A stretch of DNA of 59,488 nucleotides, taken from positions 11,062 through 70,549 of the forward strand of contig JABSPQ010000002.1 in assembly GCA_013214205.1 (NCBI GenBank). Direction: 5' to 3'. This DNA comes from Flavobacteriales bacterium. GTDB lineage: Bacteria > Bacteroidota > Bacteroidia > DT-38. The notes beneath the pieces were generated by a model. That model searched no databases. It worked only from the letters and a program-made list of their open reading frames with translations, and had not been told where the DNA came from. The position numbers and the translations under genes are program-made. Shown piece by piece: positions 36,189-57,573 of this stretch (the first letter of the stretch is position 1; each line of letters opens with the position of its first letter).

Positions 36189-36720
36189 AAGGCTGTATTT
36201 TGTTAAGTTGACCGATAATGTGGGCTCTTGCTTTCTTCAATTGCGACTTAGATGTATTAACCGAAATCTTTAATAAATCGGCAACCTCTGTATGTTTATA
36301 GCCTTCAATTGCGAACAAATTAAATATGGTTCTGTATCCAGCGGGCATCTCTTCAATTATTTTCATAACTGCTTCTACATCTATGTTAGATGAGAAGTCT
36401 ATGTCTAAGTCACTGTCGGAAATTACCGTCATGTCTGCTTCAAACTGCAATGGCTTGCGGGCGTTGATGCTTGTAATGCAATCGTTAATAACAATGGTTG
36501 TAATCCATTTTCTAAGGCTATCTTCTCCTCGGTATTCAAATTTTGCAATGCTCTTAAACACTTTTGTAAATGCTCCGGTAACAACATGCTCTGCACTAAA
36601 ATGATCGTTTAAATACCTCATTGCTATGTGATACATTTTGTTGTAGTAACCATCAAACAGCATGCGCTGCGCCTTATGGTTATTTTCAATACACTGTTTT
36701 ATTAATTCTTGCTCCTCCAA
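36175..36720 (-). CDS. ECF RNA polymerase sigma factor, FecI-like
   Basis: 181 aa. Region 2 is visible in MYHIAMRYLNDHFSAEHVVTGAFTKVFKSI and region 4 in MPAGYRTIFNLFAIEGYKHTE followed by VADLLKISVNTSKSQLKKAR. It directs RNA polymerase to its own small regulon, probably including this operon. The only start at the correct place is TTG (36718-36720). A GGAGGAG run lies inside codons 2-4, so a slightly later non-ATG start is possible. A 21-bp palindrome lies 60 bases upstream. Confidence 0.9.
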   Translation of the reverse strand: MEEQELIKQCIENNHKAQRMLFDGYYNKMYHIAMRYLNDHFSAEHVVTGAFTKVFKSIAKFEYRGEDSLRKWITTIVINDCITSINARKPLQFEADMTVISDSDLDIDFSSNIDVEAVMKIIEEMPAGYRTIFNLFAIEGYKHTEVADLLKISVNTSKSQLKKARAHIIGQLNKIQPYENK

Positions 36721-37139: not shown

Positions 37140-37922
37140 ATGCAAAATAGAAATGGTCAAGATGTCCTCGATAGTTCGGCAGAACTAATGAGAAAAGACG
37201 GATTTGTAATTATGGCAGATTTTTGTTCTGAGGAATTAATTAAAAAATTAGGTGATACGGCAATACAACGACTAAAAGATTTGCGAGAAACCCTAGGAGA
37301 TAAAGAGATAGGAATTGGTAGCTCGGCTGGATACAAGGAGATTTGTTTGCGTTCTCGTGGGAGATGGGACGCACTTATTTCGCCCAAAGAATTTGGCTAT
37401 GAGCCTGAAAACCTACCTTGGTATCCGCTAATGCAAGAGATGCTAGGCGAAGATTTAGACTTTGGAATGAGTGGCATAATTTCCTCCGAGCCTAATACAC
37501 CCGAGCAAAAATGGCACATAGATTCACCACATGAAGGTGCGGAATTATTACCCGTACATCACATTCAAGTACTAATTGCTATAAATGATATTCCTGTAGA
37601 AATGGGCCCAACCGAATTTGCGCGTGGTTCACATATTCTTAGCAATCACATAAACAAAACCAAGCTACCTATGGAGCAAATGGTATATCAAGCCGACGGA
37701 ACAAGTCCTGAAACATTGGTTGGAGGCACGGAGTACGCTGTGCCAGAAGCCGTGCAAAATGACATAACCGCTGGTACTTGCATTGCTTTTGATGATAGGG
37801 TGCTGCATCGTGGAGGACAAAATAAATCGAGTAAGAATAGGCATGTAATCTATTTTACTTATACCAAAAAAGGGTATAATCTCAGCACGCATTGGGAATC
37901 TGATGCTTCTGTTTTCGACTAA
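37140..37922 (+). CDS. phytanoyl-CoA dioxygenase (PhyH) family protein
   Basis: 260 aa Fe(II)/2-oxoglutarate-dependent dioxygenase. The iron triad is visible: His126 and Asp128 in KWHIDSPHEG and His223 in DDRVLHRGGQN, with Arg234 as the 2-oxoglutarate anchor. MGPTEFARGSH is the usual link between them. No signal peptide, so cytoplasmic. The family hydroxylates fatty acyl, amino acid and small-molecule substrates, so the target cannot be named. It stands alone, with its own upstream region after the repeat array. Confidence 0.88.
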   Translation: MQNRNGQDVLDSSAELMRKDGFVIMADFCSEELIKKLGDTAIQRLKDLRETLGDKEIGIGSSAGYKEICLRSRGRWDALISPKEFGYEPENLPWYPLMQEMLGEDLDFGMSGIISSEPNTPEQKWHIDSPHEGAELLPVHHIQVLIAINDIPVEMGPTEFARGSHILSNHINKTKLPMEQMVYQADGTSPETLVGGTEYAVPEAVQNDITAGTCIAFDDRVLHRGGQNKSSKNRHVIYFTYTKKGYNLSTHWESDASVFD

Positions 37923-38193: not shown

Positions 38194-39216
38194 TTAAAAT
38201 GGTAAATCTTCTTCTTTCGTAGCTTGAATAGTATCTTCTTCTTTATATTCAAAAAAGTTGTTCTTCACTACTTCATCGATTATAGTAATAACCTCTGAAG
38301 GCAAGTCTAAAATATTTGAAGCAATTGCCTCCTTCAACTTAACTTCTTTTGTGTTACCAGAACTGGTAACTGCGGATACTTCTGTGAAGCCCCTTAAATC
38401 AAATCTTGAAAGCACTCTCGAATAATGCGAGGATAAAATATTCTTAATGTCGTTAATTTTTCCCCATTCAATAATGTGAGCCACTTCGTTTTCTTCTTGC
38501 CACCCTGTCAGCAGTTTGTTTCGACCAGCATCCACGATGTAATGAAGCATTAAAAGTTCATCTTCTTTTAATTTTCGTTCTGTTACCAATTTGATGAGTT
38601 TCGAATACAAATTATTCGAAGTAGCATCATACGGATGTGTAATTGGGGCATGTAAAGTTGGGATTTCGGTTATTATACTTTGCCCTTCTTTATTTTTAGT
38701 GACGCTAATACTCGTTTCCTTCGCTTTTACGGACGATTTAATAGTGCTAATTTCTTGAATGAATTTTTTTACACTTTGTGAAATTATAACAGGGTTTTGT
38801 GTTATACTGAAATTTACAGATAGCGCTTGAATAAATGACAATATCCGTTCTTCGTCGTTAATATAGAATCCTATCTCCCTGGGATCAAGCGCACCATTTT
38901 GAAATTCTTTACTAGATAAATCAAAAGTTGGAGTGAAAATAGTGGCGTGTTCATTTTCTATTATCCAGGCTGCACCCATTTCATTCAGACAAGCAACACT
39001 TTCGTAATATTCTTCAGAAAGCAAATAAATGACAAATGGCTTTTCTTCAATTTGAGATTTTAGCCAATTAAAAATATTCTTGCCTACCGGGATTCCAAAA
39101 GCAATATTACTAGTGAATATTATTTCAATGTCTTTTACACCAATATTTCTGAGAAGATCAACCAACAAATTACCATAGTCTTTGTTTTTGGAAGTATGCG
39201 ATATAAATATTTTCAT
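38194..39216 (-). CDS. TIR-domain protein, possible anti-phage effector
   Basis: 340 aa. Residues 1-130 are a TIR fold: MKIFISHTSKNKDYGNLL is the first strand and BB-loop side, KPFVIYLLSEEYY the central strand, and SVACLNEMGAAW holds the expected catalytic Glu79 of NADase TIR domains. Residues 200-340 are a helical region (SKLIKLVTERKLKEDELLML) of unknown family ending in acidic residues. There is no signal peptide, so cytoplasmic. Bacterial TIR proteins commonly act in anti-phage defence by destroying NAD or making signalling nucleotides. It is 94 bases behind a two-TM coiled-coil gene on the same strand, which suggests an operon. Confidence 0.85.
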   Translation of the reverse strand: MKIFISHTSKNKDYGNLLVDLLRNIGVKDIEIIFTSNIAFGIPVGKNIFNWLKSQIEEKPFVIYLLSEEYYESVACLNEMGAAWIIENEHATIFTPTFDLSSKEFQNGALDPREIGFYINDEERILSFIQALSVNFSITQNPVIISQSVKKFIQEISTIKSSVKAKETSISVTKNKEGQSIITEIPTLHAPITHPYDATSNNLYSKLIKLVTERKLKEDELLMLHYIVDAGRNKLLTGWQEENEVAHIIEWGKINDIKNILSSHYSRVLSRFDLRGFTEVSAVTSSGNTKEVKLKEAIASNILDLPSEVITIIDEVVKNNFFEYKEEDTIQATKEEDLPF

Positions 39217-40330: not shown

Positions 40331-41170
40331 ATGAGAATAGGAATCAACATGCTATTATGGACAGACTACGTTACGCCAGCGCATTTTAGCATAATAGATG
40401 AATTACAAAACGTAGGATACAACGGAGTAGAAATCCCTTTGGGAGATGGAGATATTTCTCACTACAAAACCATAGGCAACTATCTTTCTAGCAACGGAAT
40501 GGGCGTAACATGTGTTACTTCATTAAGTCCAGATACCAATATTGCCAGCCCCAACCAATCGGTTAGAGAGGCAGGTTTAGACAGACTAAAATGGGCTATA
40601 GATAGAGCGTATGTAATGAATTCGGAAATTATATGCGGCCCATTTCATTCTGCGTTTGCACATTTTACTGGCGTGCCACCAACTGCCGACGAAAAGAAAT
40701 GGAGCATCGAAATGTTGCACAAAGCAGGAGATCATGCCCAGCAAGCCGACATCATTTTAACTCCCGAAGCCCTCAACAGATTCGAATGTTATTTGGTAAA
40801 TACAATGGCCGATTTAAAAGATTTATTAGATCAAGTAAATCATCCCAATGTGCAAGCCATCTACGATACGCACCATGCCAACATCGAAGAGAAAAGTCAG
40901 GAGCAAGCTATTTTAACAATTAAGCCTCACCTAAAACATGTGCACATAAGCGACAACGATAGAGGTACACCTGGCAAAGGACAAGTAAATTGGGGCGAAG
41001 TTTTTACAACCTTAAAAGAAATCAATTACGATGGTTGGTTAATGATAGAAGCCTTTAGCAGAAACTCACCAGATTTTGCCAACGCAATTAATGTGTGGCG
41101 AGAATTCTCGGAAACAGAAGAAGTGTACAAAGAAGGGTTTGATTTTATAAATAAAAGCTGGAACAACTAA
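40331..41170 (+). CDS. sugar phosphate isomerase/epimerase (TIM barrel) 1
   Basis: 279 aa, xylose-isomerase-like/AP-endonuclease-2 TIM barrel, closest in look to D-tagatose 3-epimerase. Metal-site residues are expected at TPEALNRFEC (Glu), IYDTHHANIEE (Asp/His), HVHISDNDRGTPGKG (His) and WLMIEAF (Glu). It should move a hydroxyl or carbonyl on a ketose. It is the first gene of a nine-gene operon; its stop shares a base with the ATG of the next gene (TAATG). No signal peptide, so cytoplasmic. Confidence 0.9.
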   Translation: MRIGINMLLWTDYVTPAHFSIIDELQNVGYNGVEIPLGDGDISHYKTIGNYLSSNGMGVTCVTSLSPDTNIASPNQSVREAGLDRLKWAIDRAYVMNSEIICGPFHSAFAHFTGVPPTADEKKWSIEMLHKAGDHAQQADIILTPEALNRFECYLVNTMADLKDLLDQVNHPNVQAIYDTHHANIEEKSQEQAILTIKPHLKHVHISDNDRGTPGKGQVNWGEVFTTLKEINYDGWLMIEAFSRNSPDFANAINVWREFSETEEVYKEGFDFINKSWNN

Positions 41171-42069
41171 TGCAAAAACCTAAGTTTTCTATTGGCAGTT
41201 GGGCGTTTTCATTTGGCCCGTTCGAGGATAATCCTTGGTCGTTTGAAAAGTTTATAACCTACGCAGCAAATGCTGGATATAATGGCGTTGAAATTAATGG
41301 CTTCGAACCACATCCACATCCCGATACATACAACACACCGCAAAAGTGTTCGGAATTAAAGCATTTGATCACCGATCATGGATTGGGGATTTCGGGTTAC
41401 GCACCCGATTTTAGACACGTACCTGCTGCGGAAGTTCCAATGAATGATCACATTGCAGTAATTGAAAAAACGTTGGCGTTCTGCAACAACATGAATATCG
41501 ATACTCTTAGAGTAGACACAATTAGTCCGCCAGATGAATTGAGTAAGGAAGAGTACAACGTAAGGTTTGATCGACTTGCAAAAACGTGGCACCAAGCGGC
41601 AGATGTTTGTAAAAAAGCGGGGGTGAAATTGGTGTGGGAGTTCGAACCGGGTTTCTGGCTCAACAAACCAAGCGAAGTGGTAGACATTGTTAAAGCGGTA
41701 AATCACGATAACTTTAAAGTGCTTTTTGATACAAGTCATGCCTACATGTGTTCGGTTGTTGGAGCACGACAAATAGGCGAGAAGGAAGTATTGGCTGGTG
41801 GCGTTGCAGAGTTTGCTAAAAACCTAAGCGGACACATTGGTCACTTTCATTTAATAGATAGCGATGGTTCGTTACACGGAGAAGAGACCAGTACCCATGC
41901 GCCATTTGGAACAGGGAATATAGATTTTGTAGAAGTAATCTCTTCCATTAAAAACGAGGTAGAACAACTTCCATGGTGGTGTTTCGATTTCTGTTTTTGT
42001 CCAACCACCGAAGTAGATGCTAAAAAAGCCATCCCATTTGTAGATCATGTAATTAGTCAGATTAAATGA
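41170..42069 (+). CDS. sugar phosphate isomerase/epimerase (TIM barrel) 2
   Basis: 299 aa, same superfamily as its neighbours but clearly different. Blocks: GYNGVEINGFEPHPHPDTYN, VWEFEPGFW (Glu), VLFDTSHAYM (Asp/His), GHIGHFHLIDSDGS (His) and WWCFDFCFCP, where the usual final Glu is replaced by Asp-Phe-Cys, an oddity at the metal site. It overlaps the hydrolase gene by 4 bases. The three TIM barrels in one operon suggest successive isomerisations of an unusual sugar. Confidence 0.88.
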   Translation: MQKPKFSIGSWAFSFGPFEDNPWSFEKFITYAANAGYNGVEINGFEPHPHPDTYNTPQKCSELKHLITDHGLGISGYAPDFRHVPAAEVPMNDHIAVIEKTLAFCNNMNIDTLRVDTISPPDELSKEEYNVRFDRLAKTWHQAADVCKKAGVKLVWEFEPGFWLNKPSEVVDIVKAVNHDNFKVLFDTSHAYMCSVVGARQIGEKEVLAGGVAEFAKNLSGHIGHFHLIDSDGSLHGEETSTHAPFGTGNIDFVEVISSIKNEVEQLPWWCFDFCFCPTTEVDAKKAIPFVDHVISQIK

Positions 42070-42866
42070 GACATTTTGTAGATGCTAATGGAATAAAAAT
42101 CAGCTACCAAGTTTTCGGACAAGGAGATCCACTGGTATTAATAATGGGATTTGGAGCCGATGGCAACGTTTGGGAAAAGCACCTGAACGAATACCAAAAG
42201 CATTTTAGGTGCATTGTGTTAGACAATCGTGGTGTGGGAGAATCCGATCAACCAGCGGGCCCATATTCCACCAAAGTGATGGCGGCCGATGTTGTTGCAG
42301 TAATGGATCATGCCAAGGTTGACAAGGCAAAAGTTGCAGGCATTTCTATGGGTGGAGCCATTGCCCAAGAGTTGGCTTTAAACTATCCTGCAAAAGTGAG
42401 TGCGTTGGTTTTAGTAGCTACTTGGCCCAAGTTTAACAATTATGCAAAATCGGTTTACGAAAACCTCAAGAACTTAAGAGTAACAAGTAAATCGGATGAT
42501 TTTATGGCATTGCTGCAACTCTGGATTTTTGCACCACCGTATTATCAGGATGGTTTGGCCGATTTAAAAGACGGACAGAATGCTGCCATAAATAACGACA
42601 CCCCACAAACTCAAAACGGATTTGAAGGCCAGCTCGACGCATGTATTAACCATGATACCATTGATAGATTGCACAGGATTAAAGTGCCTACTTTAATTAC
42701 CTGTGGCGAAATGGATATTTTTACTCCGCCTGCATTTTCTAAGATTTTACACAATGGCATAAAGAATTCGGAGTACGTTTCTTTTCCTGAAGCAGGGCAT
42801 GTGCATCATTGGGAAGACCTCGAAAGATTTAACAAACTAACAACCGAATTCTTTTTAACTAATTAG
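42066..42866 (+). CDS. alpha/beta hydrolase
   Basis: 266 aa, cytoplasmic. Nucleophile elbow GISMGG (Ser94), preceded by LDNRGVGESDQPAG. The acid is probably the Asp in CGEMDIFTPP and the base the His in AGHVHHWED. This is the common 3-oxoadipate enol-lactonase/esterase-like subgroup, so in a sugar operon it may open a lactone, an expected product of sugar dehydrogenation, or remove an ester group. That role is inference. It lies between the second and third TIM-barrel genes. Confidence 0.9.
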   Translation: MRHFVDANGIKISYQVFGQGDPLVLIMGFGADGNVWEKHLNEYQKHFRCIVLDNRGVGESDQPAGPYSTKVMAADVVAVMDHAKVDKAKVAGISMGGAIAQELALNYPAKVSALVLVATWPKFNNYAKSVYENLKNLRVTSKSDDFMALLQLWIFAPPYYQDGLADLKDGQNAAINNDTPQTQNGFEGQLDACINHDTIDRLHRIKVPTLITCGEMDIFTPPAFSKILHNGIKNSEYVSFPEAGHVHHWEDLERFNKLTTEFFLTN

Positions 42867-42869
42867 TAG

Positions 42870-43682
42870 ATGAGCAAAATTAAAGTTGCGTGCGAAACAT
42901 ATACTTGGCAAATGCCAGGCGAGGGTTATAAAGGCAAGCTAGATCACATTATGGGCGTGGTTAACAATTCTGGGTTTGAGGGCATTGAACCTGAAACGAG
43001 TTTCTTCCACCACTTGTCTGATCCTATTAAAATGAAGGAAGTGTTGGACAAACATCATTTAAAATTAACCGCGCTTTGTCATGTAGAAGATTGGCTGGGA
43101 ACCCAAGAAACCGAAACCGAAAAAGCCAATGCCGATAAATGGATCGACTTTCTTGCTCATTTTCCTGATACCATTTACCTGATGGTTCAAATGCCAGGAA
43201 CGGACAGAAATAATTTGAAGGAGCGACAAGCCAACTTGTTGTCGTGTGTAAACGATATTGGCCAACGGGCATCCGATAAAGGCATCACCTGTTCCTATCA
43301 TCCCAATTCTCCCGAAGGATCGATTTATAGAACGGAGGCAGATTACAAGATTTTGTTGAATGGATTGGACAGCACTGTAGGCTACACTCCAGATGTTGGA
43401 CACATGGCAAAAACAGGTATGGATCCGTTAAGCATCATCAAGCAATATAGAGATCAAGTTAATTTGGTTCACTATAAAGACATGTTCGATGATGGAAGTT
43501 GGGCACCAACAGGCGAAGGAATTATTGATTTTGATGCCATCACAAAATATTTGATTGAAACCAATTACGATGGTTGGATTGTAATGGAAGATGAATGCGA
43601 CGAATGCATTACAAACCCTGATGGTGTTACTTTGAACGATGGAAACTTTATCGATGCCAACATCCGATCTTTACTAAGCTAA
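42870..43682 (+). CDS. sugar phosphate isomerase/epimerase (TIM barrel) 3
   Basis: 270 aa. Blocks: KVACETYTWQMPGEGYKGKL, GFEGIEPETSFF, SYHPNSPEGSIY, YTPDVGHMAKTG, VNLVHYKDMFDDGSW and GWIVMEDECDE. It has the usual alternating strand/helix pattern and late Glu of the family. Reaction not assignable from sequence. It is 3 bases from the hydrolase and 14 from the ThuA gene. Confidence 0.88.
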   Translation: MSKIKVACETYTWQMPGEGYKGKLDHIMGVVNNSGFEGIEPETSFFHHLSDPIKMKEVLDKHHLKLTALCHVEDWLGTQETETEKANADKWIDFLAHFPDTIYLMVQMPGTDRNNLKERQANLLSCVNDIGQRASDKGITCSYHPNSPEGSIYRTEADYKILLNGLDSTVGYTPDVGHMAKTGMDPLSIIKQYRDQVNLVHYKDMFDDGSWAPTGEGIIDFDAITKYLIETNYDGWIVMEDECDECITNPDGVTLNDGNFIDANIRSLLS

Positions 43683-43696
43683 ACAAATACAGTACT

Positions 43697-44851
43697 ATGA
43701 AATATTTAAACCTCTTTATTATCTCCATATTTTGGATGGCGTGTGGTTCACCTAACGAGTCCTCAGAATCTTCAACGAATGAGGAAGCAGTAGAGGACGT
43801 GTCCTCCATAGCTTTAGCGACGGAGGAATGGCTCACAATGACTGGAAAGGCAGACAAGCCAAATGTCGTATTGATTGCAGGTGATGAAGAATACCGATCG
43901 GAGGAAGCATTGCCGATGTTGGCAAAAATTCTGTCGGAAACACATGGCTTTAATTGTACCGTATTGTTTGCACAAGATCCTGCCAAACCCGGAATTGTTG
44001 ATCCCAATTATTTGAACAACATCACTGGATTGGATCAATTAAAAACAGCCGATTTGATGATTATGTTTACCCGTTTTAGAGCGTTGCCAGATGAGCAAAT
44101 GAAATACATCGACGATTATTTAATGAGCGGCAAGCCTGTAATTTCTATCAGAACAGCCACCCATGCATTTTGGTTCAAGGGTATAGAAATGGAATCGAGT
44201 TACCGACACTATTGTAATTCTTACCAAAGCGAAGATGAGTGGAACAAGGGCTATGGCGGCTTAGTAATGGGCGATAAGTGGTATTACCATCATGGTGGGC
44301 ACAAGTTTCAAAGCACAAAAGGGTTGATTGCTTCAGGTGCCGAAAATCACCCTGTTCTTAATGGAATTGAAGACGGTGACATTTGGGGCCCTTCGGATGT
44401 TTACGGAGTAAGATTGCCTTTGCCCGGTGATGCACAACACCTTGTATTAGGCCAAGTAACGGTGAGAGCAGGTGAATGGGATTCAACCGATTCGAGGTAT
44501 GGCATGCGACCAACCGATAGCGTATTGGCACCACATGTAGATTGGGAAGACGAAGGGATGATGGACGTTAATTTAAACGACCCAATGATGCTGATAGCGT
44601 GGACAAAAACATACCAATTACCCAACGGGAAAGCTGGAAAATCGTTTAGCTCTACCATTGGTGCGGCAACAGATTTAATTGCAGAAGGAACCCGAAGATT
44701 GATGGTGAACGCCGCATTTTGGTGCTTAGATTTGGAAGTCCCAGAGAAAGCCAATGTTGATGTAATTGGCACTTACGAACCGACTGCATATAAGTCGTTT
44801 CCCGACAGTATTTGGGACAACAGAGATTTGAAAATTTCAAGTTTACAATAG
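43697..44851 (+). CDS. ThuA-like lipoprotein
   Basis: 384 aa with lipobox WMAC. ThuA fold: PNVVLIAGDEEYRSEEALPM, LKTADLMIMFTRFRALP, GKPVISIRTATHAFW, GWGD-free but with VMGDKWYYHHGGHKF and MLIAWTKTYQLPNG. It differs from the ThuA protein at 10.1-11.0 kb by being a lipoprotein with an acidic N-terminal linker. It is followed at once by the DUF6797/cytochrome c lipoprotein, repeating the ThuA/heme c pairing seen at 10-13 kb. This suggests that both act at the same membrane face on the same type of sugar. Confidence 0.88.
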   Translation: MKYLNLFIISIFWMACGSPNESSESSTNEEAVEDVSSIALATEEWLTMTGKADKPNVVLIAGDEEYRSEEALPMLAKILSETHGFNCTVLFAQDPAKPGIVDPNYLNNITGLDQLKTADLMIMFTRFRALPDEQMKYIDDYLMSGKPVISIRTATHAFWFKGIEMESSYRHYCNSYQSEDEWNKGYGGLVMGDKWYYHHGGHKFQSTKGLIASGAENHPVLNGIEDGDIWGPSDVYGVRLPLPGDAQHLVLGQVTVRAGEWDSTDSRYGMRPTDSVLAPHVDWEDEGMMDVNLNDPMMLIAWTKTYQLPNGKAGKSFSSTIGAATDLIAEGTRRLMVNAAFWCLDLEVPEKANVDVIGTYEPTAYKSFPDSIWDNRDLKISSLQ

Positions 44852-44864
44852 TAAAACATAAGGT

Positions 44865-47800
44865 ATGCGTTATTTAATTGGTTGCTTAATTTTTGTTGTA
44901 TTGCTTTCAGGCTGCGGTTCCGAAGATAATTCGGGCACATGGGATGTGGTTATGAATTTTGAAGACGGTGAGTATACTGCTGTTTTAAGATTCGAAAATA
45001 AGGATGGAGAATTTGATGTAGCCATGAATTCAATGTCGGATGGAAAATACAATGTCGAAAAAATCGAGATCACAGGCAATCAATTTGTTCTTGACTTTAA
45101 TAAGTGGGACGATATATATGGATTGAAAGGCGTTATTGATGGCAATACAATTAAGGGAGACATATATTTAGATGGTGAAAAAACGGAGGATTATTTCTCA
45201 GCCACCAAGCAATCTGGCGAACTGGTAACCATTGATAGATCGAAAATAGAATACCTGTTGTCGGACGAAGACGTAATGGAAACCGAACAAAACATTGATC
45301 ATGCGGGGTTAATTGAGGAACTAAACCAAGGTTCGATTGGAAGAGGACGTAGAATTTATAATTCCAATTGCATCAACTGTCATGGAACCCAAAAGCTAAC
45401 AGGATCGATTCCTACTTCATTAAAGTTTTGGAAAGAGTCTTTTAAAACAGGAAGCGATCCATTTTCGATGTATCAAACCATCACGAAGGGTTTTGTACAA
45501 ATGCCACCTCAAGTAACTATGACGCCTCGTGAGAAGTACGACGTGATTGCGTTTATCCGAGAGCGTTTAATTGCTGATGACAACGAAGATCAGTATTATA
45601 AAACTACTTCAGGGTATTTGGCAGGTTTACCCAAAGGCGATTCTAAAGGCCCCAAACCTGTGGCGCACACACCATGGTCGAATCAGGATTATGGCAGCTT
45701 TCTAATCAATACATACGAGTTGTTGGATACCAGCAAAGCACAACCACGTCCTTATGGTGGTGGTTCGCCAGTATCAGACGAAGATCTTTCGACGAACAAC
45801 TTTGCTTACAAAGGCATAGCGGTTCGGTTGGATAAAGGAGATGGCGGAGTGGCCAAAGGAAAGGCGTGGATGATTTTCGATCACGATGTAATGCGTGTTG
45901 CAGGCGGCTGGACAGGCGATGGTTTTATTGATTGGGATGCAATTCTTTTGAATAACAGACACAACACGTATCCACGTACAATTGGGAAACTGCATTTCGA
46001 AACACCTGTTGGTCCTGGTTGGGCAAACCCTGCTAGTGGTTCGTTTGACGATCCTAGGTTTACTGCAAGAGACGGGAGGCAGTTTGGACCACTACCAAAA
46101 TCGTGGGCCAACTATAAAGGAATCTATCACCATGGCGACAACATCATAATTTCTTATTCTGTTGGTAGCGCTAATGTTTTGGAACAACTTGGCGTAATTG
46201 AAAATGGCGATTCGCCTGTGTTTACAAGAACTTTAAATATCACAGCGCCATCTGATTTATTGAAAATGAAAGTCGCACCAATTTCTAATTCAGTTCAAAT
46301 TTCTGGTACTGGTGCAACAATAAAAGAAGAAGATGGCTTTTATATAGTACTTGTAGAAAAGTCAAAAGCTGCTCAAATTAGACTGTTTATTACTGGTGGT
46401 GATGCTGCTGACCTAGATCAAATTGTTGCAGATAATTCAGAAGTTGAAACCTTAGATAAGTATACCCAAGGTGGCCCAGCTCATTATCCACAGGAGGCAA
46501 CAAGCGTTGTTACAACCGGAAACGATGATGGAATGTTTGCCGTAGATCACCTCACGCCTCCATTTAAAAATCCTTGGAATTGCAGGATGAAACTCAGCGG
46601 GATTGACTTTTTAAAGGATCAGAACAAGGGTGTGATCTGTACAACCGATGGCGATGTATTTATTGTTACTGGCTTAACGGATAACAACGGACAGCTTAAA
46701 TGGAAAAGGATTGCAGCTGGTCTGTTTCAGCCATTAGGGATTAAAGTAATTGATGAGAAAATCTATGTATCGTGCCGAGATCAAATTGTTTTGCTCAGAG
46801 ATTTGAACGGAGATGAAGAGACAGATTTTTACGAAAGTTTCAACCACGATCATCAGGTAACCGAGCATTTTCACGAATTTGCAATGGGATTACAAGCTGA
46901 TAAAAAAGGCAATTTGTATTATGCCAAAAGTGGCCGACATGCCCGAGAGGCACTTGTACCACAACATGGTACTTTACTAAAAGTGAGTAGCGATGGATCG
47001 AAAACAGAAATTTTAGCAAATGGTTTTAGGGCTGCAAATGGAATCTGCATTAATCCAGATGGTGGCTTTTTGGTTACAGATCAAGAAGGACATTGGAATC
47101 CTATGAATCGGATTAATTGGATAAAGGGTGGAGAGAGAGGAAAGTTTTTTGGCAATATGTGGGGATATAATCCGCCTAAGGATACATCGAGAAAGGCAAT
47201 GGAACAACCAATGGTTTGGGTGGACAAAATCTTTGATCGATCGCCTGCCGAGTTGCTGTGGGTAGAGAGCAAAGGTTGGGGCGACTTAAATGGTGGACTT
47301 TTAAATTCGTCGTTTGGCTACGGTAAACTGCAATGGGTGTATCATGAAGAAGTGGCAGGACAGAAGCAAGGTGGTGTTATCGACTTGCCCGATACTGATT
47401 TTAGAACAGGGGTAATGCGTGGAAGATTCCACCCGACAGATGGCAATTTGTACATCTGCGGAATGGCTGCATGGGGTTCGTCTAACAACACGCGCATGGG
47501 CGATTTTTACAGGGTTAGATATACTGGTAATACAATTACGATCCCGTTGGAATTGAGTGCAACTGAGGAAGGAATGTCGATGACATTTGCCAATAAACTG
47601 AGTAAAGAAAGTGCGTTGGATAAATCGAATTACGAAGTGAAAACATGGGAGTTAATAAGGAGTAGTAATTATGGTTCTGATAGGTACAATGAAAAAACAT
47701 TAGAGATAAGTGATGTTGTACTCAACGCAGATGAAACAGGAGTGAGGTTGTTGTTAAACGACATTGTACCTGTAGATGTAATGACGATTGAATACAAGAT

Positions 47801-47879
47801 TGTTAATGCTGCTGGCGACAGTTTAAAAGGAACTGTTCAAAATACGATTCACAATTTGGCAAAATCAATTGCCCAATAA
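44865..47879 (+). CDS. DUF6797/cytochrome c/sorbosone dehydrogenase-like lipoprotein
   Basis: 1004 aa. Lipobox VLLSGC (Cys17). Residues 20-120: small beta domain. About 150-235: cytochrome c with CINCH (Cys169, Cys172, His173) and axial Met213 in VQMPP. About 255-500: DUF6797 (PWSNQDYGSFLINTYELL, AWMIFDHDVMRVAGGWTGDG, GPGWANPASGSFDDPRF). About 540-920: propeller with GLFQPLGIKVIDEKIYVSCR and NGICINPDGGFLVTDQEGHW. Predicted heme-linked sugar oxidase at the periplasmic or outer face. The order of heme and propeller is opposite to the 11.1-13.3 kb protein, where heme c is last. In the operon it lies between ThuA and ribulokinase. Confidence 0.88.
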   Translation: MRYLIGCLIFVVLLSGCGSEDNSGTWDVVMNFEDGEYTAVLRFENKDGEFDVAMNSMSDGKYNVEKIEITGNQFVLDFNKWDDIYGLKGVIDGNTIKGDIYLDGEKTEDYFSATKQSGELVTIDRSKIEYLLSDEDVMETEQNIDHAGLIEELNQGSIGRGRRIYNSNCINCHGTQKLTGSIPTSLKFWKESFKTGSDPFSMYQTITKGFVQMPPQVTMTPREKYDVIAFIRERLIADDNEDQYYKTTSGYLAGLPKGDSKGPKPVAHTPWSNQDYGSFLINTYELLDTSKAQPRPYGGGSPVSDEDLSTNNFAYKGIAVRLDKGDGGVAKGKAWMIFDHDVMRVAGGWTGDGFIDWDAILLNNRHNTYPRTIGKLHFETPVGPGWANPASGSFDDPRFTARDGRQFGPLPKSWANYKGIYHHGDNIIISYSVGSANVLEQLGVIENGDSPVFTRTLNITAPSDLLKMKVAPISNSVQISGTGATIKEEDGFYIVLVEKSKAAQIRLFITGGDAADLDQIVADNSEVETLDKYTQGGPAHYPQEATSVVTTGNDDGMFAVDHLTPPFKNPWNCRMKLSGIDFLKDQNKGVICTTDGDVFIVTGLTDNNGQLKWKRIAAGLFQPLGIKVIDEKIYVSCRDQIVLLRDLNGDEETDFYESFNHDHQVTEHFHEFAMGLQADKKGNLYYAKSGRHAREALVPQHGTLLKVSSDGSKTEILANGFRAANGICINPDGGFLVTDQEGHWNPMNRINWIKGGERGKFFGNMWGYNPPKDTSRKAMEQPMVWVDKIFDRSPAELLWVESKGWGDLNGGLLNSSFGYGKLQWVYHEEVAGQKQGGVIDLPDTDFRTGVMRGRFHPTDGNLYICGMAAWGSSNNTRMGDFYRVRYTGNTITIPLELSATEEGMSMTFANKLSKESALDKSNYEVKTWELIRSSNYGSDRYNEKTLEISDVVLNADETGVRLLLNDIVPVDVMTIEYKIVNAAGDSLKGTVQNTIHNLAKSIAQ

Positions 47880-47889
47880 TTATTAGAAT

Positions 47890-49539
47890 ATGGGAGCGTC
47901 GCAATATACCATTGGACTAGATTTTGGATCGGACAGCGTAAGAGCTTTGGTGGTTAATGTGGATACTGGCGAGGAAGTTTGCACTGCTGTTTCTAATTAC
48001 AAAAGATGGGCAGCAGGACAGTATTGCATTCCGCATAAAAACCAGTTTCGCCAGCACCCCAAAGATTATATAGAGTCGATGATTGAGGTGGTTAACGCCG
48101 CTTTAGATCAAACGGATAATGATGTAAGAGAAGGAATAATTGGTATTGGTGTCGACACCACGGGTTCTACACCTTGCCCGGTTGATGGTGCTGGAATTCC
48201 ATTGGCACTTACAGCAGGCTTTGAGGAAAACCCGAACGCCATGTTTCATTTGTGGAAAGATCATACCGCTATTAATGAGGCTGCTGAGATTAACGAAAAG
48301 AACAAAGATTCGGATGTTGATTACCTCAAGTATGTTGGCGGTATTTATTCATCTGAATGGTTTTGGGCAAAAATTATTCATACCAATAGGGCCGACGAAG
48401 ATGTCAGAAATTCGGCCTACACATGGGTAGAACATTGCGATTGGATTCCGTTTATGTTAACGGGTGGAAGCGATGCAACCGAAATGAAAAGAAGCGTATG
48501 TGCTGCTGGTCATAAAGCATTGTGGCACCAAGAATTTGAAGGAATGCCGTCTAAAGATTTTTTAACGAAATTAGATTCGAGCTTAGCCAACTTTAAAATA
48601 GAGTTATTAAAAGAGGCACATACTTCTGATGAAGTGGCAGGAAGTTTAAACGAAGAATGGGCTGACAAATTAGGTTTGTCGAGTAAGGTAGTTGTAGCCG
48701 TTGGCGCATACGATGCGCATATGGGTGCAGTTGGTGGAGAAATTGAATCTGGGTTTTTAAGCAAAGTCATAGGAACTTCTACATGCGACATTATGGTAGC
48801 ACCACTTGAACCGAATGAGCATTTGGTAAAAGGAATTTGTGGACAAGTTAATGGTTCGGTAATTCCGGGGATGCTAGGTTTAGAAGCTGGACAATCTGCC
48901 TTTGGAGACGTTTATGCATGGTTTAAACAGCTGCTTGTTTGGCCGCTAAAATATGCAGGTGATTCAATTTCGGAAGCTGCAATAAAAGAAATTTCAGATG
49001 CTATAATTCCGAACTTGGCAAAAGAAGCCGAGCAGATTGCACCCGAAACCGACGATGCTGTTGTGCTCGATTGGTTGAACGGCAGAAGATCACCAGATGC
49101 AGACCAATCATTAAAAGGAGTTCTATCAGGACTTAATTTAGGAACGGATGCACCACGTGTTTTCAAAAGCTTGGTAGAAGCAACTTGCTTTGGCGCAAGA
49201 AAAATTACTGAACGATTCGACGATGAAGGTGTCGAGATTAAAGGCGTAATAGCATTGGGAGGTGTGGCAAAGAAATCAGCTTATGTAATGCAAACGCTTT
49301 CGGATGTTTTGCAGATGCCAATAAAAGTGGGTAAGTCGGAACAGACATGTGCCTTGGGTGCAGCCATGTTCGCAGCCGTAGCAGCAGGCAAATACAATAG
49401 GGTAGAAGAAGCCATGAAAAACATGGGTGCTGGTTTTGAAAAAACGTATCAACCTAACAAAGCAAGAGTAGATGTATACAATCACTTGTATGCTAGATAT
49501 TGTAATTTAGGCGCGGCAATTGAATCAATAGAAGAATAA
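47890..49539 (+). CDS. araB: ribulokinase
   Basis: 549 aa FGGY-family kinase, full length. IGLDFGSDSVRALVVNVDTG is the phosphate-1 motif, GIGVDTTGSTPCPVD the ribulokinase signature, and IGTSTCDIMVAP and IALGGVAKKS the later ATP-site motifs. AraB-type ribulokinases phosphorylate L- and D-ribulose, and some act on ribitol or L-xylulose. It directly abuts araD (stop and start adjacent). There is no araA (L-arabinose isomerase) in the window, so the ketose may come from one of the three TIM-barrel enzymes upstream. Confidence 0.93.
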   Translation: MGASQYTIGLDFGSDSVRALVVNVDTGEEVCTAVSNYKRWAAGQYCIPHKNQFRQHPKDYIESMIEVVNAALDQTDNDVREGIIGIGVDTTGSTPCPVDGAGIPLALTAGFEENPNAMFHLWKDHTAINEAAEINEKNKDSDVDYLKYVGGIYSSEWFWAKIIHTNRADEDVRNSAYTWVEHCDWIPFMLTGGSDATEMKRSVCAAGHKALWHQEFEGMPSKDFLTKLDSSLANFKIELLKEAHTSDEVAGSLNEEWADKLGLSSKVVVAVGAYDAHMGAVGGEIESGFLSKVIGTSTCDIMVAPLEPNEHLVKGICGQVNGSVIPGMLGLEAGQSAFGDVYAWFKQLLVWPLKYAGDSISEAAIKEISDAIIPNLAKEAEQIAPETDDAVVLDWLNGRRSPDADQSLKGVLSGLNLGTDAPRVFKSLVEATCFGARKITERFDDEGVEIKGVIALGGVAKKSAYVMQTLSDVLQMPIKVGKSEQTCALGAAMFAAVAAGKYNRVEEAMKNMGAGFEKTYQPNKARVDVYNHLYARYCNLGAAIESIEE

Positions 49540-50241
49540 ATGAGCGCATACAAAACCATTAAACAAGAAGCGTACGAAGCAAACATAAAACTGCCTGAAC
49601 TAGGCTTGGTGCTTTTTACATTTGGTAATGCCAGCGCAGCAGATAGAGACAAAGGCGTTTTTGCAATTAAACCAAGCGGTGTGGCTTACGACGATTTAAA
49701 AGTTGAAGACATGGTGATTGTTGATTTCGAAGGGCAAACTGTCGAAGGTTCAATGCGTCCATCGTCAGATACCAAAACACATGCGGTGCTGTACAAGGAG
49801 TGGAGTTCTATAGGAGGAATTGTACACACGCATTCTACTTATGGAACTGCTTGGGCACAAGCTCAATTAGATATCCCTATTTATGGAACCACCCACGCCG
49901 ACTACTTAGCTGGCGATGTGCCGTGTGCTCCAGTAATGTCGGACGAGATGATTAAAGGAAATTACGAGTACGAAACAGGTTATCAAATTGTCAATTGCTT
50001 TAAGGATAAAAGCATCTCTCCCGAAGAAGTTGAAATGATGATTGTAGCTAATCATGCTCCGTTTACTTGGGGAAAAGATGCCGACAAGGCGGTTCACAAT
50101 AGCGCTGTGTTAGAAGAAATTGCTAAAATGGCCTGGCTCACTCAATCCATTAATCTGAATGTGCCAAGATTAAAGGATAGCCTGATAGAAAAGCATTACA
50201 AAAGAAAGCACGGCGATGATTCTTATTACGGCCAGCCTTAA
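49540..50241 (+). CDS. araD: L-ribulose-5-phosphate 4-epimerase
   Basis: 233 aa class II aldolase/epimerase. Zinc ligands His96, His98 (VHTHSTYGTAW) and His172 (ANHAPFTWG), with Asp77, line up one residue off from the E. coli AraD positions (95, 97, 171, 76). GTTHADYLAGDVPC is the typical AraD block. It converts L-ribulose-5-phosphate to D-xylulose-5-phosphate, linking this operon to the pentose phosphate pathway. Confidence 0.93.
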   Translation: MSAYKTIKQEAYEANIKLPELGLVLFTFGNASAADRDKGVFAIKPSGVAYDDLKVEDMVIVDFEGQTVEGSMRPSSDTKTHAVLYKEWSSIGGIVHTHSTYGTAWAQAQLDIPIYGTTHADYLAGDVPCAPVMSDEMIKGNYEYETGYQIVNCFKDKSISPEEVEMMIVANHAPFTWGKDADKAVHNSAVLEEIAKMAWLTQSINLNVPRLKDSLIEKHYKRKHGDDSYYGQP

Positions 50242-50264
50242 GATTTAAATCGTAACAGCAACTT

Positions 50265-51161
50265 ATGTGGATTCTGCTCGGTGTACTTTCGCTGATCTCT
50301 TTAGGGATTTACGACATTTTAAAGAAGCTTGCTCTTGATAATAATGCAGTTTTGCCTGTGTTGTTTTTCGCAACACTGTCTAGCGCCATTCTATTTATTC
50401 CATCGCTTATTGGCTCGTTGGCTTTTGATGGTTTCGACCAATATGATAATTTTTATATCCCACCGCAAGGATTACAATTTCATATTCACATCCTTATAAA
50501 AACGGTTATTGTCATCTCCTCGTGGATTTTATCCTACATGGCGCTAAAGCACTTGCCCATTACAATTGTATCGCCCATAAGATCCACTGGCCCTGTTTGG
50601 ACACTAATAGGTGCCATTTTAATCTATGGCGAAGAGTTAACCATCCTACAATGGGCAGGTATGACGGTGGTGCTAATTTCTTTTTACTTTTTCTCAAGAG
50701 TCGGGAGGAAAGAGGGCATAAACTTTAAAACAAACAAGTGGATTTGGTTTCTTGTCGCAGCTACTTTTATTGGTACGTTGAGTACGTTGTACGATAAGTT
50801 TTTGATAGATCATTACAACCGTATTGCTGTACAGGCGTATTTCTCTTTTTATCAGGTGCTAATAATGTTGCTCGTCTTGGCCGCTTTTTGGTTCCCAAAA
50901 AGAAAGGAACTCACCCCGTTTAAATGGCATCCTGCAATTGCGTTTATCGGCATTGTATTGGTACTTGGCGATTTCGCCTATTTCTACGCCATAACATACG
51001 AGGATTCGTTGATCTCTATTTTGTCGCTACTCAGAAGAAGTAGTGTTATTATCTCGTTTGGCGTAGGAGCGTTTCTTTTTAAGGAGAGCAATACCAAGCA
51101 AAAGGGTTTAATTCTGTTGGGTATCATAGCAGGTATTTATCTCATCATTCTAGGGCAGTGA
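50265..51161 (+). CDS. EamA/DMT-family transporter
   Basis: 298 aa integral membrane protein with about ten hydrophobic helices and an internal repeat, as in the drug/metabolite transporter family. Helix-forming stretches include WILLGVLSLISLGIYDILKK at the start and ILLGIIAGIYLIIL at the end. The conserved PITIVSPIRSTGPVWTLIGA occurs in the first half. It is the last gene of the nine-gene operon, and so a candidate uptake or efflux route for the sugar or a product. It ends 6 bases before a strong hairpin. Confidence 0.88.
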   Translation: MWILLGVLSLISLGIYDILKKLALDNNAVLPVLFFATLSSAILFIPSLIGSLAFDGFDQYDNFYIPPQGLQFHIHILIKTVIVISSWILSYMALKHLPITIVSPIRSTGPVWTLIGAILIYGEELTILQWAGMTVVLISFYFFSRVGRKEGINFKTNKWIWFLVAATFIGTLSTLYDKFLIDHYNRIAVQAYFSFYQVLIMLLVLAAFWFPKRKELTPFKWHPAIAFIGIVLVLGDFAYFYAITYEDSLISILSLLRRSSVIISFGVGAFLFKESNTKQKGLILLGIIAGIYLIILGQ

Positions 51162-51221: not shown

Positions 51222-54221
51222 CTACCTCTTAACAAGCTTCAAGCTCCCTATACTATCAACCCTCAGAAAATACATCCCTTCATTCAATCCCGATACATCC
51301 AAAGCCCCACTATAAACCTCACTAAAAACCAATTGCCCATTCAACCCAAACACACTAACAACTACCCCCCTTTTCAAATTCTCAATATGAATCAAATTCT
51401 CAGCAGGGTTTGGATAAACAGCAATAGCAATGCTATTGCTTAGCTCAATCACACTTGTAAAAGGATTAACCTTTACAATCAACACCTCATCTAAAAAGAT
51501 AAAATCCTTGTTAGTAGCAGCTCCCTTAAAAGTAATGGTGTGTACGCCCGAATCTAGCAGGAGGGTATCAGTTATAAAAAACTTTAAGTATTGCGACAAA
51601 CCAGTTGCACCAGCAACGGTTATTATAGTTGTCACCTTAACGTCGTCTATGTAAACTTGCAGTTCAGGAGCTTTATCCTTGTTAATCCCTGCTCTAAACT
51701 GAATGAAATAATTGTCTGCTTCGAGTAAATAGATACTTTGAGAAACCGAAGCATCCGTACCAGTTATAAAACCAGTTTGCACACCCTCAGGAGTATCCAA
51801 CGCATCTAAATCGCTACCATTCTCCTGCACGCCAGCGTTGTTATATGTATACGTCCAGCCAGTTCCTATAGGAGCATGTTCGTAATTAGAAATAACAGGG
51901 TCTTCAAAACTTCCATTAATTAATTCGGTAGTTATCCGTGCAATATTGTTTTCACCACCACCTTCAGAATATAAAAGTGTAGGTTTCTCACTTTCTGTTG
52001 AGGCGGTTTCTTTACTGTAAATGTCAGATGAGTTAGTAGAACTCCACACCACAATTTTAAGCGAGAGCGTTTGATCGGAAGCAAGCTCTGCTGATACCTC
52101 ATTGGAAAGATCCCATTCCAATATCGAACTTAATTCATTTGTTTGTACCCCCAACGAAACACCGGCAGATGGCGCATTGTTAAAAGTAATTCCAGTTTCT
52201 GTCCAGCTATCATCCGCCACTAAAAACAACTCATAAACATTCGTGTTGGCGCCGGTAACAGTAAGGTTAAGTTTAGCAGAACCAACTTCCGAGGGTAGGC
52301 TAGTTAAATCGAACTTGATAAAACCTTCTTGCGAGGTGCTTGTATCTTCGGCTCCAAAGTTTAACGAAATAGCCGTAGTTCCAAAGTTACTATCGGCATC
52401 GCCACCCAAAACATAAGCGTCTTCAATCGCCTTAATTTCGAGGCTGCTCGCTAAGCTTACTTCGTTGGTTGGGGCAGAAGCAACAACACCAACCACGGCT
52501 ACAACTCGATATGTAAAGTTGTAAGAAGCAGGCAGCGCAGTGTGAGAATAAGTAGTAATATCGGCATTAACCATTGCTAAAGTTGTCCACGTTTCATTCT
52601 CAATTATTTCAATTGCAAATTCTTGTTCAGTGTCTGCGTTGTCTGTCCAAGTCAAATCAATTTGATTTCCGTTTAAAACAGCAGCTAAATCCGTAGGAGC
52701 GGAGGGAGTCAATCTATCTTTAAGTTGAGCCATGTACAAATTAGGAATATCTGTAATTGGTGTGTTATGAGATTCCACAACACCAAGGGTACCAACATAA
52801 CCGTCGAATTGCCCTGCTGCCCTAATATTGCCAGTACTACCAATAACCCAGTTGGTATAATTGGAAGGAGGGTTGTGAACAATCATTAATGGTGCTTTAC
52901 AATTCCACAGTACATTTTGAGCGCCAGCCCAACCATGTCCACTTCCTGAACAACGTCTGTTTTGAACATTGATTTGATTATTGTCATCAACATTGTCCCA
53001 AAGTGTACCTGTACACCATCTGTCGTGAGGACCAGAATCAGCGGTTTGTTTTAAAGCTTTACAATTTACATATGCATTGGGACCTGGTGTCAGAGATAAT
53101 TGTGCAAAAGCATGGCGGCCGTCCTCCGATTCGCAATTTTTAGCAAGTACAAGATCGCAATCATCTAAAATAAATCCATACATCTTGCCACCTGTTCTAA
53201 CGCACTTAAACTCGTATGCGCCACAGTTTTCAATGGTTGTTTGATATGTCCCATCATAAATTTGAAACCCATGATAGAAATAATATGCTTTAACATTTCG
53301 TACCCAAGCATTTTCTATTTTCCTGAATTTAATCGCAATTTTCGCGTGTTTTTCGTCGTCGTCTGATGCATAGGAGGTCAATAAGCGGATGTGTTCAATG
53401 CCGCATTCTTCTATTTTACCTGGCCAAGTATATTTTGCTAAAGTGGCCGAACTATAAGTGTTCCCAATTGGGTCAACAACAGGAGCATCGAGGGTAATGG
53501 TGTCGCCATTTACATTCATTACTCTTCTTTTGTATTTGATAGTTTTCTCACCCCAGCTTGTATGTCCAGTTCCACAAAATGTTGCCAAATTATCCATTTC
53601 TAACAATGCAGCCCAGGCTAGGTTGTTTACAACTGTCAAAATCACTCGATCGCCAATTGAGAATGTGTGGCCTGTTTCTACCGTAATGTTTTTTGAACCA
53701 ATAGGTACATAGCTATCAGTTATTGCTTTTTTAGTAATTGTGTCTATTATGGCAAAATCACTGCCATAAAAATCAAATAAAATTACTTTGTTGGTGTCGT
53801 TAATTTCGATGATAGTTCCGTTTTCATCGCTTCCTTCTCCTCTTATAACTACTCCGCTACTGGTAATGGTAAATGGGTCGTGTACTTCGTAATAACCAGC
53901 TGTTAATAAAATCGCTCCTCTATGTCCGTTGGCATCCTGTGGCATTGCAGCAACTGAATCAATGGCATTCTGAATTTCAGCCCACCTGTTTCCTGTGCCC
54001 GGATTCAGCGTTACCTTAACTGGTACATCGGGAATTACTTTCTCACCCTGGTGATAGCCCACATTGCTAAAGTCGGGGATAATGTTTCCATTGGCATCTG
54101 GTGTGTAAGTGAGCTTGCCCTGTGCGTCTATTGAAACGAGGTTGCTTGTTTGTGCATATATTGAGAAATTCAATGCGAAAAGGCAAATCGTTAAAAGGCT
54201 CAGTTTAGTAAGAGTTTTCAT
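51222..54221 (-). CDS. T9SS-secreted right-handed beta-helix protein, possible polysaccharide lyase/hydrolase
   Basis: 999 aa. Signal peptide ends SIYAQ. About 90-500: right-handed beta-helix with GYYEVHDPFTITSSGVVIRG, VKAYYFYHGFQIYDGTYQTT and the family-typical SGPHDRWCTGTLWDNV...GSGHGWAGAQNVLWNC. About 505-590: fibronectin III (LAAVLNGNQIDLTWTDNAD). About 595-755: DNRLRE-type domain (DSNFGTTAISLNFGAED). About 765-910: carbohydrate-binding-like domain (NGSFEDPVISNYEHAPIGTG). End: T9SS type A tail (LNEGMYFLRV...LKLVKR). Secreted and surface-attached. Similar beta-helix proteins act on uronate polymers, but no catalytic set can be confirmed here. It is divergent from the PL8 lyase. Confidence 0.88.
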   Translation of the reverse strand: MKTLTKLSLLTICLFALNFSIYAQTSNLVSIDAQGKLTYTPDANGNIIPDFSNVGYHQGEKVIPDVPVKVTLNPGTGNRWAEIQNAIDSVAAMPQDANGHRGAILLTAGYYEVHDPFTITSSGVVIRGEGSDENGTIIEINDTNKVILFDFYGSDFAIIDTITKKAITDSYVPIGSKNITVETGHTFSIGDRVILTVVNNLAWAALLEMDNLATFCGTGHTSWGEKTIKYKRRVMNVNGDTITLDAPVVDPIGNTYSSATLAKYTWPGKIEECGIEHIRLLTSYASDDDEKHAKIAIKFRKIENAWVRNVKAYYFYHGFQIYDGTYQTTIENCGAYEFKCVRTGGKMYGFILDDCDLVLAKNCESEDGRHAFAQLSLTPGPNAYVNCKALKQTADSGPHDRWCTGTLWDNVDDNNQINVQNRRCSGSGHGWAGAQNVLWNCKAPLMIVHNPPSNYTNWVIGSTGNIRAAGQFDGYVGTLGVVESHNTPITDIPNLYMAQLKDRLTPSAPTDLAAVLNGNQIDLTWTDNADTEQEFAIEIIENETWTTLAMVNADITTYSHTALPASYNFTYRVVAVVGVVASAPTNEVSLASSLEIKAIEDAYVLGGDADSNFGTTAISLNFGAEDTSTSQEGFIKFDLTSLPSEVGSAKLNLTVTGANTNVYELFLVADDSWTETGITFNNAPSAGVSLGVQTNELSSILEWDLSNEVSAELASDQTLSLKIVVWSSTNSSDIYSKETASTESEKPTLLYSEGGGENNIARITTELINGSFEDPVISNYEHAPIGTGWTYTYNNAGVQENGSDLDALDTPEGVQTGFITGTDASVSQSIYLLEADNYFIQFRAGINKDKAPELQVYIDDVKVTTIITVAGATGLSQYLKFFITDTLLLDSGVHTITFKGAATNKDFIFLDEVLIVKVNPFTSVIELSNSIAIAVYPNPAENLIHIENLKRGVVVSVFGLNGQLVFSEVYSGALDVSGLNEGMYFLRVDSIGSLKLVKR

Positions 54222-54640
54222 TAAATGATTTTTTATGCCCTCACATCAAATTTCACGACTTGTGAATAACTGACATGCAAAAACTTGCTATTGTGCAAAG
54301 TATAAATTAAATACACTCGATTGTATTACAATTAGTGTTACATAGCATAATTAGTATTGAGGTATCTGTAGTTAGGATTTGTTGATTCCTTTTATTGATT
54401 ATATAAAAATCAACATAGTTAATATACGATTAATTGCAAAAATAACCCTTTTGGATGTACAGAATAACAAAAGAAAACTTTTATACTGTATTTTGGAAAA
54501 TTATTCATCTGTGCCCTGTTTTAGTGAAAACTTATTCTTAAATATTCACATTTTCAAGGTTTATGAACTGGTTAGACAGCACAGGACACCATATCAATAT
54601 TTACGAACTATATTTAGTAGATCATATCAACTTAAATGCA
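54222..54640. other. divergent intergenic region between the beta-helix protein and the PL8 lyase
   Basis: About 420 bases, very AT-rich, holding the promoters for both divergent genes. I find no exact TTG-N19-TAnnTTTG match. A reading frame starting at 54563 extends the lyase by 26 residues, but the signal peptide begins at 54641. No RNA gene or repeat seen. Confidence 0.5.
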
Positions 54641-57043: not shown

Positions 57044-57166
57044 AAGGGTAGAAGCCTAGAAAGCATATTATTTTAAGTACCTAATCTCAAACAAAACCAA
57101 ATAAAACGAAATGCAAAGCAGCTCCTCTCTCAACCTTCGTAGCGAAGCGAAGTAGGTAAGGGGATG

Positions 57167-57189
57167 CAGTCACGCGGCACGCGTGACTG
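57167..57189. repeat. perfect GC-rich hairpin
   Basis: CAGTCACGCG (57167-57176) pairs with CGCGTGACTG (57180-57189) over a 3-base loop. No T-run follows. It may belong to the same class of GC-rich intergenic palindromes as 30906-30952 and 38002-38055. Confidence 0.6.
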
Positions 57190-57419
57190 AGCGGTCTAGT
57201 GGACATTAGCAGAACTGAGCATTATACGAAAGCAGCCTGCAGGATAGCAGGAAAGCCTATAATTACCCCAATCCATCTTTACGCTAATGGATGGATGCAA
57301 TATAGATACAGATTAGTAACACCAGAGACAAATCGCGATGAGATTGCTATTGGACATTGATTAGACACGGTTTAACTACGGGGGAACCTAAGAAGAGCAT
57401 TGAGTGAAGAGCAAGAGTT

Positions 57420-57491: not shown

Positions 57492-57573
57492 CAATAAACC
57501 ATCAACTATAATTCTACCTCCTTTAATTACCTCCATCTTCCATAAAGCTCGAAAAAATGGTAATTTTAACCAT

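Follow-up and report, generated by a model that had tools for sequence, protein, structure and literature searches.

In the analyzed window, a stretch of 59,488 nucleotides from a Flavobacteriales bacterium, nine open reading frames follow each other on the same strand between positions 40331 and 51161 (Table 1). In gene order, their junctions consist of overlaps of 1 and 4 bases followed by gaps of 3, 14, 13, 10, 0, and 23 bases, and the same-strand cluster of nine genes that an earlier note on this DNA had described was thus recovered in full, with all junctions lying between -4 and +23 bases. Promoter and terminator counts within the operon were at the level of shuffled sequence; promoters of the host may be of another type. 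Downstream of the nine genes, the window also contains a PL8 and a sulfatase gene.

Table 1. Predicted genes of the nine-gene cluster; coordinates refer to the window.
Gene	Coordinates	Strand	Predicted product	Basis
1 (T1)	40331..41170	+	PF01261 barrel, ketose 3-epimerase of the D-tagatose/D-psicose/L-ribulose 3-epimerase family	PF01261
2 (T2)	41170..42069	+	PF01261 barrel, hallmark of the module	PF01261, 118 bits
3	42066..42866	+	alpha/beta hydrolase, PcaD-like	TIGR02427, 156 bits (cut-off 256)
4 (T3)	42870..43682	+	PF01261 barrel, closest to inosose dehydratase IolE	PF01261
5	43697..44851	+	ThuA-like protein, lipoprotein-like N-terminus	similarity to a protein of locus L028
6	44865..47879	+	lipoprotein with cytochrome c (CBB3), DUF6797, and beta-propeller	profiles
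7	47890..49539	+	AraB, L-ribulokinase	TIGR01234
8	49540..50241	+	AraD, L-ribulose-5-phosphate 4-epimerase	NF006047
9	50265..51161	+	EamA-family transporter	PF00892

Related loci were collected by means of exact peptide patterns of T2, and the resulting sample of 46 loci, whose T2 proteins share 47–78% identity with gene 2, is therefore biased to close relatives. The loci belong to Bacteroidota, Planctomycetota (including Sedimentisphaerales), Lentisphaerota, Verrucomicrobiota, and Chloroflexota, and furthermore to Paenibacillaceae and other Bacillota, Actinomycetota, and Spirochaetota. Next to T2 (46 loci), they encode the hydrolase (43), T3 (42), T1 (37), and the ThuA-like protein (28). In this comparative search for the gene set, T2 and the hydrolase recur across phyla in company with the barrels of genes 1 and 4, far above chance. 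The EamA gene, a member of the operon here, is present in none of the 46 loci, which rules it out as a component of the module and does not bear out its inclusion in the system by the earlier note. No T2 was found in 149 further genomes from the genus and class of the host, a search in plasmids yielded remote barrels alone, and one genome (G183) contains T2 as the sole member of the module set. Judged from these sequence comparisons, the module is patchy in this genus and class and widely shared elsewhere, and the nine-gene cluster represents a single instance of a conserved catabolic module found in many phyla. This module is apparently undescribed, as a literature search for the pathway or the gene combination returned no matching description; most subscription journals were outside its coverage, and an earlier description is possible.

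Gene 7 exceeds the cut-off of the L-ribulokinase profile TIGR01234 (605.7 bits; cut-off 583) and resembles the solved enzyme 3qdk with an E-value of 3e-101. Its positions K209, D275, and E332, which we take to be catalytic from 3qdk, are retained in 11/11 AraB proteins of the module. Gene 8 passes NF006047 (360 bits; cut-off 257), stays below the equivalog cut-off of TIGR00760 (309 bits; cut-off 389), and matches the solved AraD 1jdi with an E-value of 1e-72; H96, H98, D121, and H172, presumably the His and Asp ligands, are found in 9/9 AraD proteins of the module. Both profiles and catalytic residues indicate that the two genes encode a genuine AraB and a genuine AraD. The AraA_N profile (PF02610), which matched the positive controls from E. 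coli, B. subtilis, Bacteroides, and others, yielded zero matches across the whole 5.1 Mb, 97%-complete host genome. The occurrence of araB and araD without araA, as claimed before, is thereby confirmed, also with regard to an araA gene linked elsewhere in the genome, which had been named as an observation that would speak against this view. The proposed end of the pathway, the conversion of L-ribulose to D-xylulose-5-phosphate, is likewise regarded as well supported by comparison. In addition, the host encodes XylA (xylose isomerase) on contig C132 with an adjoining FGGY kinase, which is taken as a xylulokinase. D-xylose therefore has its own route and does not need the nine-gene operon.

For T1, the closest solved relatives are the D-tagatose 3-epimerases 7dz5/7dz2 (E-value 1e-38). 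The protein reaches 163 bits with the D-psicose 3-epimerase profile NF051856 (below the equivalog cut-off of 300) and only 43 bits with the profile of the phosphate-type L-ribulose-5-phosphate 3-epimerase, NF009688 (cut-off 317); it additionally matches IolO. In an alignment to the P. cichorii enzyme 2ou4, the metal ligands as well as the substrate-contacting Glu, His, and Arg are present. E146, E152, D179, H182, R211, and E240 are kept in every module sequence covering the respective site, and H205 in 33 of 38, with Gln in the other five. Since it scores far higher with the former type, T1 is assigned to the free-ketose rather than the phosphate-type 3-epimerases. With AraB and AraD acting downstream, the simplest reading of its reaction is the interconversion of L-xylulose and L-ribulose; enzymes of this family are promiscuous, so that a C6 substrate is possible as well.

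The epimerase role that the earlier note gave to the TIM barrels is thus supported for gene 1, which would catalyze an epimerase step, and not supported for genes 2 and 4. For T2, no sequence relatives were found in the PDB. Its predicted model (pLDDT 93.7) is nearest to the uncharacterised fold 2zds, and the fold search was discarded as a guide to the reaction because it returned only the general sugar isomerase/epimerase fold; isomerase, decarboxylase, and eliminase are the candidate activities. T3 is most similar to IolE (3cny; 9e-11), scores 85 bits with the IolE equivalog profile (below the cut-off of 290), and weakly resembles the 2-hydroxy-3-keto-glucal hydratase 8ro4 (E-value 1e-4). 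These two resemblances make a keto intermediate likely. Known decarboxylase profiles were matched by none of the three barrels. The closest profile of the hydrolase, that of an enol-lactonase (TIGR02427), is matched below its cut-off (Table 1), and its Ser-Asp-His triad (Ser94, Asp217, His245) is intact, each residue being retained by 95% or more of the copies in the module. A role as lactone, ester, or C-C hydrolase is proposed for this protein.

Gene 5 yielded no significant direct match in Pfam, including PF06283 (ThuA). It is named here after its similarity (32% identity in an alignment covering 80% of gene 5) to a PF06283-matching protein encoded at positions 6531-7310 of a Paenibacillaceae-type locus (L028). 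The heme motif of gene 6, C169-x-x-C172-H173, is invariant in six homologues, and its N-terminus, judged by eye, is lipoprotein-like. A fold search gave the PQQ sugar dehydrogenase 3a9g as best match (E-value 1e-7) for a low-confidence model with a mean pLDDT of 58.6, the quality of which was too poor for further structural detail to be used. Motif, N-terminus, and this low-confidence fold match are in accordance with the extracytoplasmic heme-c dehydrogenase previously postulated, and gene 6 is proposed to be an extracytoplasmic sugar dehydrogenase. In the Paenibacillaceae loci, a Zn-dehydrogenase takes the place of the DUF6797 protein. Over all 46 loci, the former is present in 18 and the latter in 6, never both in one locus; this exclusivity may reflect a functional replacement or, since it follows phylum, lineage alone. 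DUF6797 was mentioned in no paper within our literature search, which had most subscription journals outside its coverage.

Module-bearing genomes were also profiled for AraA, AraB, and AraD, with a distance of up to 10 kb defining linkage to the module. AraA is present in 22 of 35 such genomes. In 8 of the 11 genomes that lack AraA and possess AraD, araB and araD adjoin the module, as compared to 1 of the 22 genomes with AraA (Fisher p=1e-4). Exclusion of Paenibacillaceae gives p=0.002, and thinning of close relatives p=0.02. The exceptions G159, G161, and G171 contain AraD and no AraA, with araBD not within 10 kb of the module. Among AraD-bearing Bacteroidota, AraA is missing from 5 of 12 genomes with the module, and 8 of 67 randomly chosen genomes are without any AraA_N match. 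In the majority of the 46 loci, araB and araD are not located inside 10 kb; most of the unlinked genomes encode AraD elsewhere, and two module-bearing MAGs (G152, G153) contain neither an AraB above 60 bits nor an AraD. The AraB tree requires five changes between the linked and the unlinked state, at least four of them forced by well-supported branches, and module-linked copies fall in several clades between which the gene order varies. According to this tree, the linkage between araBD and the module has changed several times, gains not being separable from losses by the AraB tree alone. In two Saprospiraceae genomes (G150, G151), the only full-length AraB lies in the module and AraA and AraD are located together elsewhere, and in a Chloroflexota genome (G163) the only AraB and AraD lie in the module and AraA on another contig. 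If the arabinose pathways of these three organisms work, the kinase of the module would be an L-ribulokinase.

Taken together, we consider it fairly probable that the module leads via L-xylulose and L-ribulose to D-xylulose-5-phosphate. A sugar would at first be oxidized, here by the DUF6797/cytochrome-c lipoprotein and in Paenibacillaceae perhaps by the Zn-dependent (alcohol) dehydrogenase. The oxidized sugar or sugar acid would then be converted to L-xylulose by barrels and hydrolase, where L-xylulose itself, the order of steps, and the chemistry of T2, the hydrolase, T3, and the ThuA-like protein are the conjectural parts. T1 would subsequently epimerize L-xylulose at C3 to L-ribulose, AraB would phosphorylate the latter to L-ribulose-5-phosphate, and AraD would form D-xylulose-5-phosphate. 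As L-ribulose would be supplied by T1, AraA would be bypassed. The earlier interpretation is supported for AraB and AraD without AraA, the endpoint, one epimerase step, and the heme-c dehydrogenase, and not supported for the EamA transporter and the three epimerases.

Two possibilities concern only the upstream half of this pathway and overlap with the proposed route. In the first, a hexose or hexuronate would undergo oxidative decarboxylation, with dehydrogenase and hydrolase providing an aldonate and a barrel decarboxylating its 3-keto form to L-xylulose. By our own stereochemical derivation, L-galacto-, L-gulo-, or L-ido-configured hexoses or hexonates (L-galactonate, L-gulonate, or L-idonate) could yield L-xylulose in this way, and the relationship of the hydrolase to enol-lactonases would fit. 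Neighboring genes offer partial support: GH95, GH29, and a PTE-family hydrolase lie within ~35 kb of the module in Flagellimonas, and GH29 adjoins the module of an Anaerolineales MAG (L020). Overall, the neighbors differ between loci and point to no single glycan: the Flagellimonas set also includes SusC/SusD-like genes and a sulfatase-like gene and is partly present in Allomuricauda, L020 additionally has GH127, and Paenibacillaceae loci adjoin GH43 and oligosaccharide ABC transporters. GH29 was dismissed as a general substrate marker, as it lies within ~35 kb of only three module loci and is absent from the host genome. Considering also the missing match to decarboxylase profiles and the fact that described L-galactose pathways proceed via D-tagaturonate and not via AraBD (PMC12632266), a decarboxylation seems rather unlikely, even if it is the best placed of the alternatives.

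Slightly less credit is given to a 3-keto-glycoside route, in which C3 oxidation by the DUF6797/cytochrome c protein or the Zn-dehydrogenase would be followed by beta-elimination by T2 or the ThuA-like protein, hydration of the keto-glycal by T3, and reduction and isomerisation to L-xylulose or another pentulose. This route is compatible with an ending in AraB and AraD; to our knowledge, however, no known version of it ends there. The heme-c/PQQ-like architecture of gene 6 is in line with it, as is the distant relationship of T3 to the 3-keto-glucal hydratase, yet this similarity is weak and IolE is the better fit. Enzymatic beta-elimination of 3-keto-glycosides as such is established (PMC10628242).

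More doubtful is an AraA-free L-arabinose pathway with T2 or T3 as a non-homologous L-arabinose isomerase and the other genes serving arabinose oligosaccharides. The retention of AraBD in the absence of AraA and the GH43 and GH127 genes adjoining the Paenibacillaceae and L020 modules, respectively, would agree with it, but many module-bearing genomes possess a real AraA (see above), and no role would be left for T1, the hydrolase, the ThuA-like protein, and the dehydrogenase. E. coli AraB takes several 2-ketopentoses, and AraB and AraD could accordingly be passengers or act on another pentulose, e.g., D-ribulose, with an unrelated end product of the module, as the many loci without nearby araB and araD might suggest; this is the least plausible reading, since the recurrent linkage tracks the absence of AraA, AraD is found elsewhere in most unlinked genomes, and neither D-ribulose nor D-xylulose would require AraD.

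The proposed route via L-xylulose and L-ribulose shares AraB, AraD, and the end in D-xylulose-5-phosphate with the canonical L-arabinose operon (araA, araB, araD). It differs by the lack of AraA in the genome and of a regulator among the nine genes, by five to six conserved additional upstream enzymes, and by the separate AraA that many module genomes keep. The L-ascorbate (ula) and L-lyxose/L-xylulose pathways of enterobacteria likewise use a 3-epimerase of the PF01261 fold linking L-xylulose and L-ribulose forms, followed by a 4-epimerase; their epimerase (UlaE type) acts on phosphates, whereas T1 resembles free-ketose epimerases. T1 shares family and catalytic residues with D-tagatose/D-psicose/L-ribulose 3-epimerases, yet does not reach the equivalog cut-off that NCBIfam sets for D-psicose 3-epimerases, and the substrate given here for T1 is a predicted one. 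With inositol catabolism, the module has in common that T3 is nearest to IolE and that T1 matches IolO, both far below the curated cut-offs; unlike there, AraBD are present and IolG, IolD, and IolB are absent among the nine genes. The dual L-glucose/L-galactose pathway of Luteolibacter LG18 (lgu genes) also combines a sugar dehydrogenase with a 4-epimerase for an unusual hexose and has relatives in Bacteroidota and Planctomycetota, phyla that carry the module as well, but it ends in D-tagaturonate and KDG without AraB and AraD (PMC12632266).

When AraB and AraD occur without AraA, the arabinose pathway would usually be considered defective or incomplete; in this case, their presence is explained by a conserved module, which suggests that many phyla have a second way of arriving at L-ribulose. 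In its widest form, which we put forward tentatively and hold to be nearly, though not quite, an even matter, the proposal is that of an undescribed multi-phylum pathway by which plant and algal glycans would be used through a sugar, or sugar acid, so far unrecognised. This pathway would run via L-xylulose and L-ribulose and involve one or more new barrel reactions (that of T2) as well as a sugar dehydrogenase of the heme-c/DUF6797 type, and araBD would have joined it several times where the arabinose pathway is absent. Testable functions are thereby offered for the T2 barrel family and for the uncharacterised DUF6797/cytochrome-c lipoproteins. For automated pathway tools, the module is a caution that araBD alone are insufficient for calling arabinose use.

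Just downstream of the operon, the nine-gene sugar cluster of the window, lie genes for a secreted CBM96 protein, a PL8 lyase and an SGSH-type sulfatase, which possibly constitute a separate sulfated-glycan locus. On the upstream side, the TIR-domain protein is perhaps a defence gene, and the gene for the PhyH dioxygenase showed no recurrence across the module loci. Also in the window, a putative FecI/FecR-like pair of sigma factor and anti-sigma factor, recognised by eye (35334-36720), precedes a CarbopepD_reg_2/STN protein.

Features of the window on either side of the operon
Feature	Window position	Strand	Location
Rieske ring-hydroxylating oxygenase alpha subunit	22283-23485		upstream of operon
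PhyH dioxygenase	37140-37922		upstream of operon
TIR-domain protein	38194-39216	-	upstream of operon
Secreted CBM96 protein	within 51222-59106	-	just downstream of operon
PL8 lyase	within 51222-59106	+	just downstream of operon
SGSH-type sulfatase	within 51222-59106	+	just downstream of operon

In the Bacteroidota genomes G316, G392, G413, G449, G275, G285, G368, and G376, the gene adjoining AraD matches the L-arabinose isomerase profile AraA_N only weakly (37-46 bits); it may encode an arabinose isomerase that has diverged, or else an isomerase of some other kind.

Second and third paralogues of T2, the hallmark barrel of the module, were found in Lentisphaerota genomes at 38-40% identity (L060, 6434-7342; G162, C213; G182, C162). 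Near the Seonamhaeicola module (L053, 5061-8417), a glucose/sorbosone dehydrogenase domain (PF07995) is fused to ThuA.

Paenibacillaceae-type modules are adjoined at ~14.8-18 kb by genes for a fatty-acid-desaturase-like enzyme and a ferredoxin reductase (loci L028, L030, L031, and L034), joined in L031 and L034 by a Rieske-like ferredoxin; the desaturase-like gene is present in L033 and L047 as well. These genes perhaps represent a monooxygenase whose substrate would be an O-methylated sugar.
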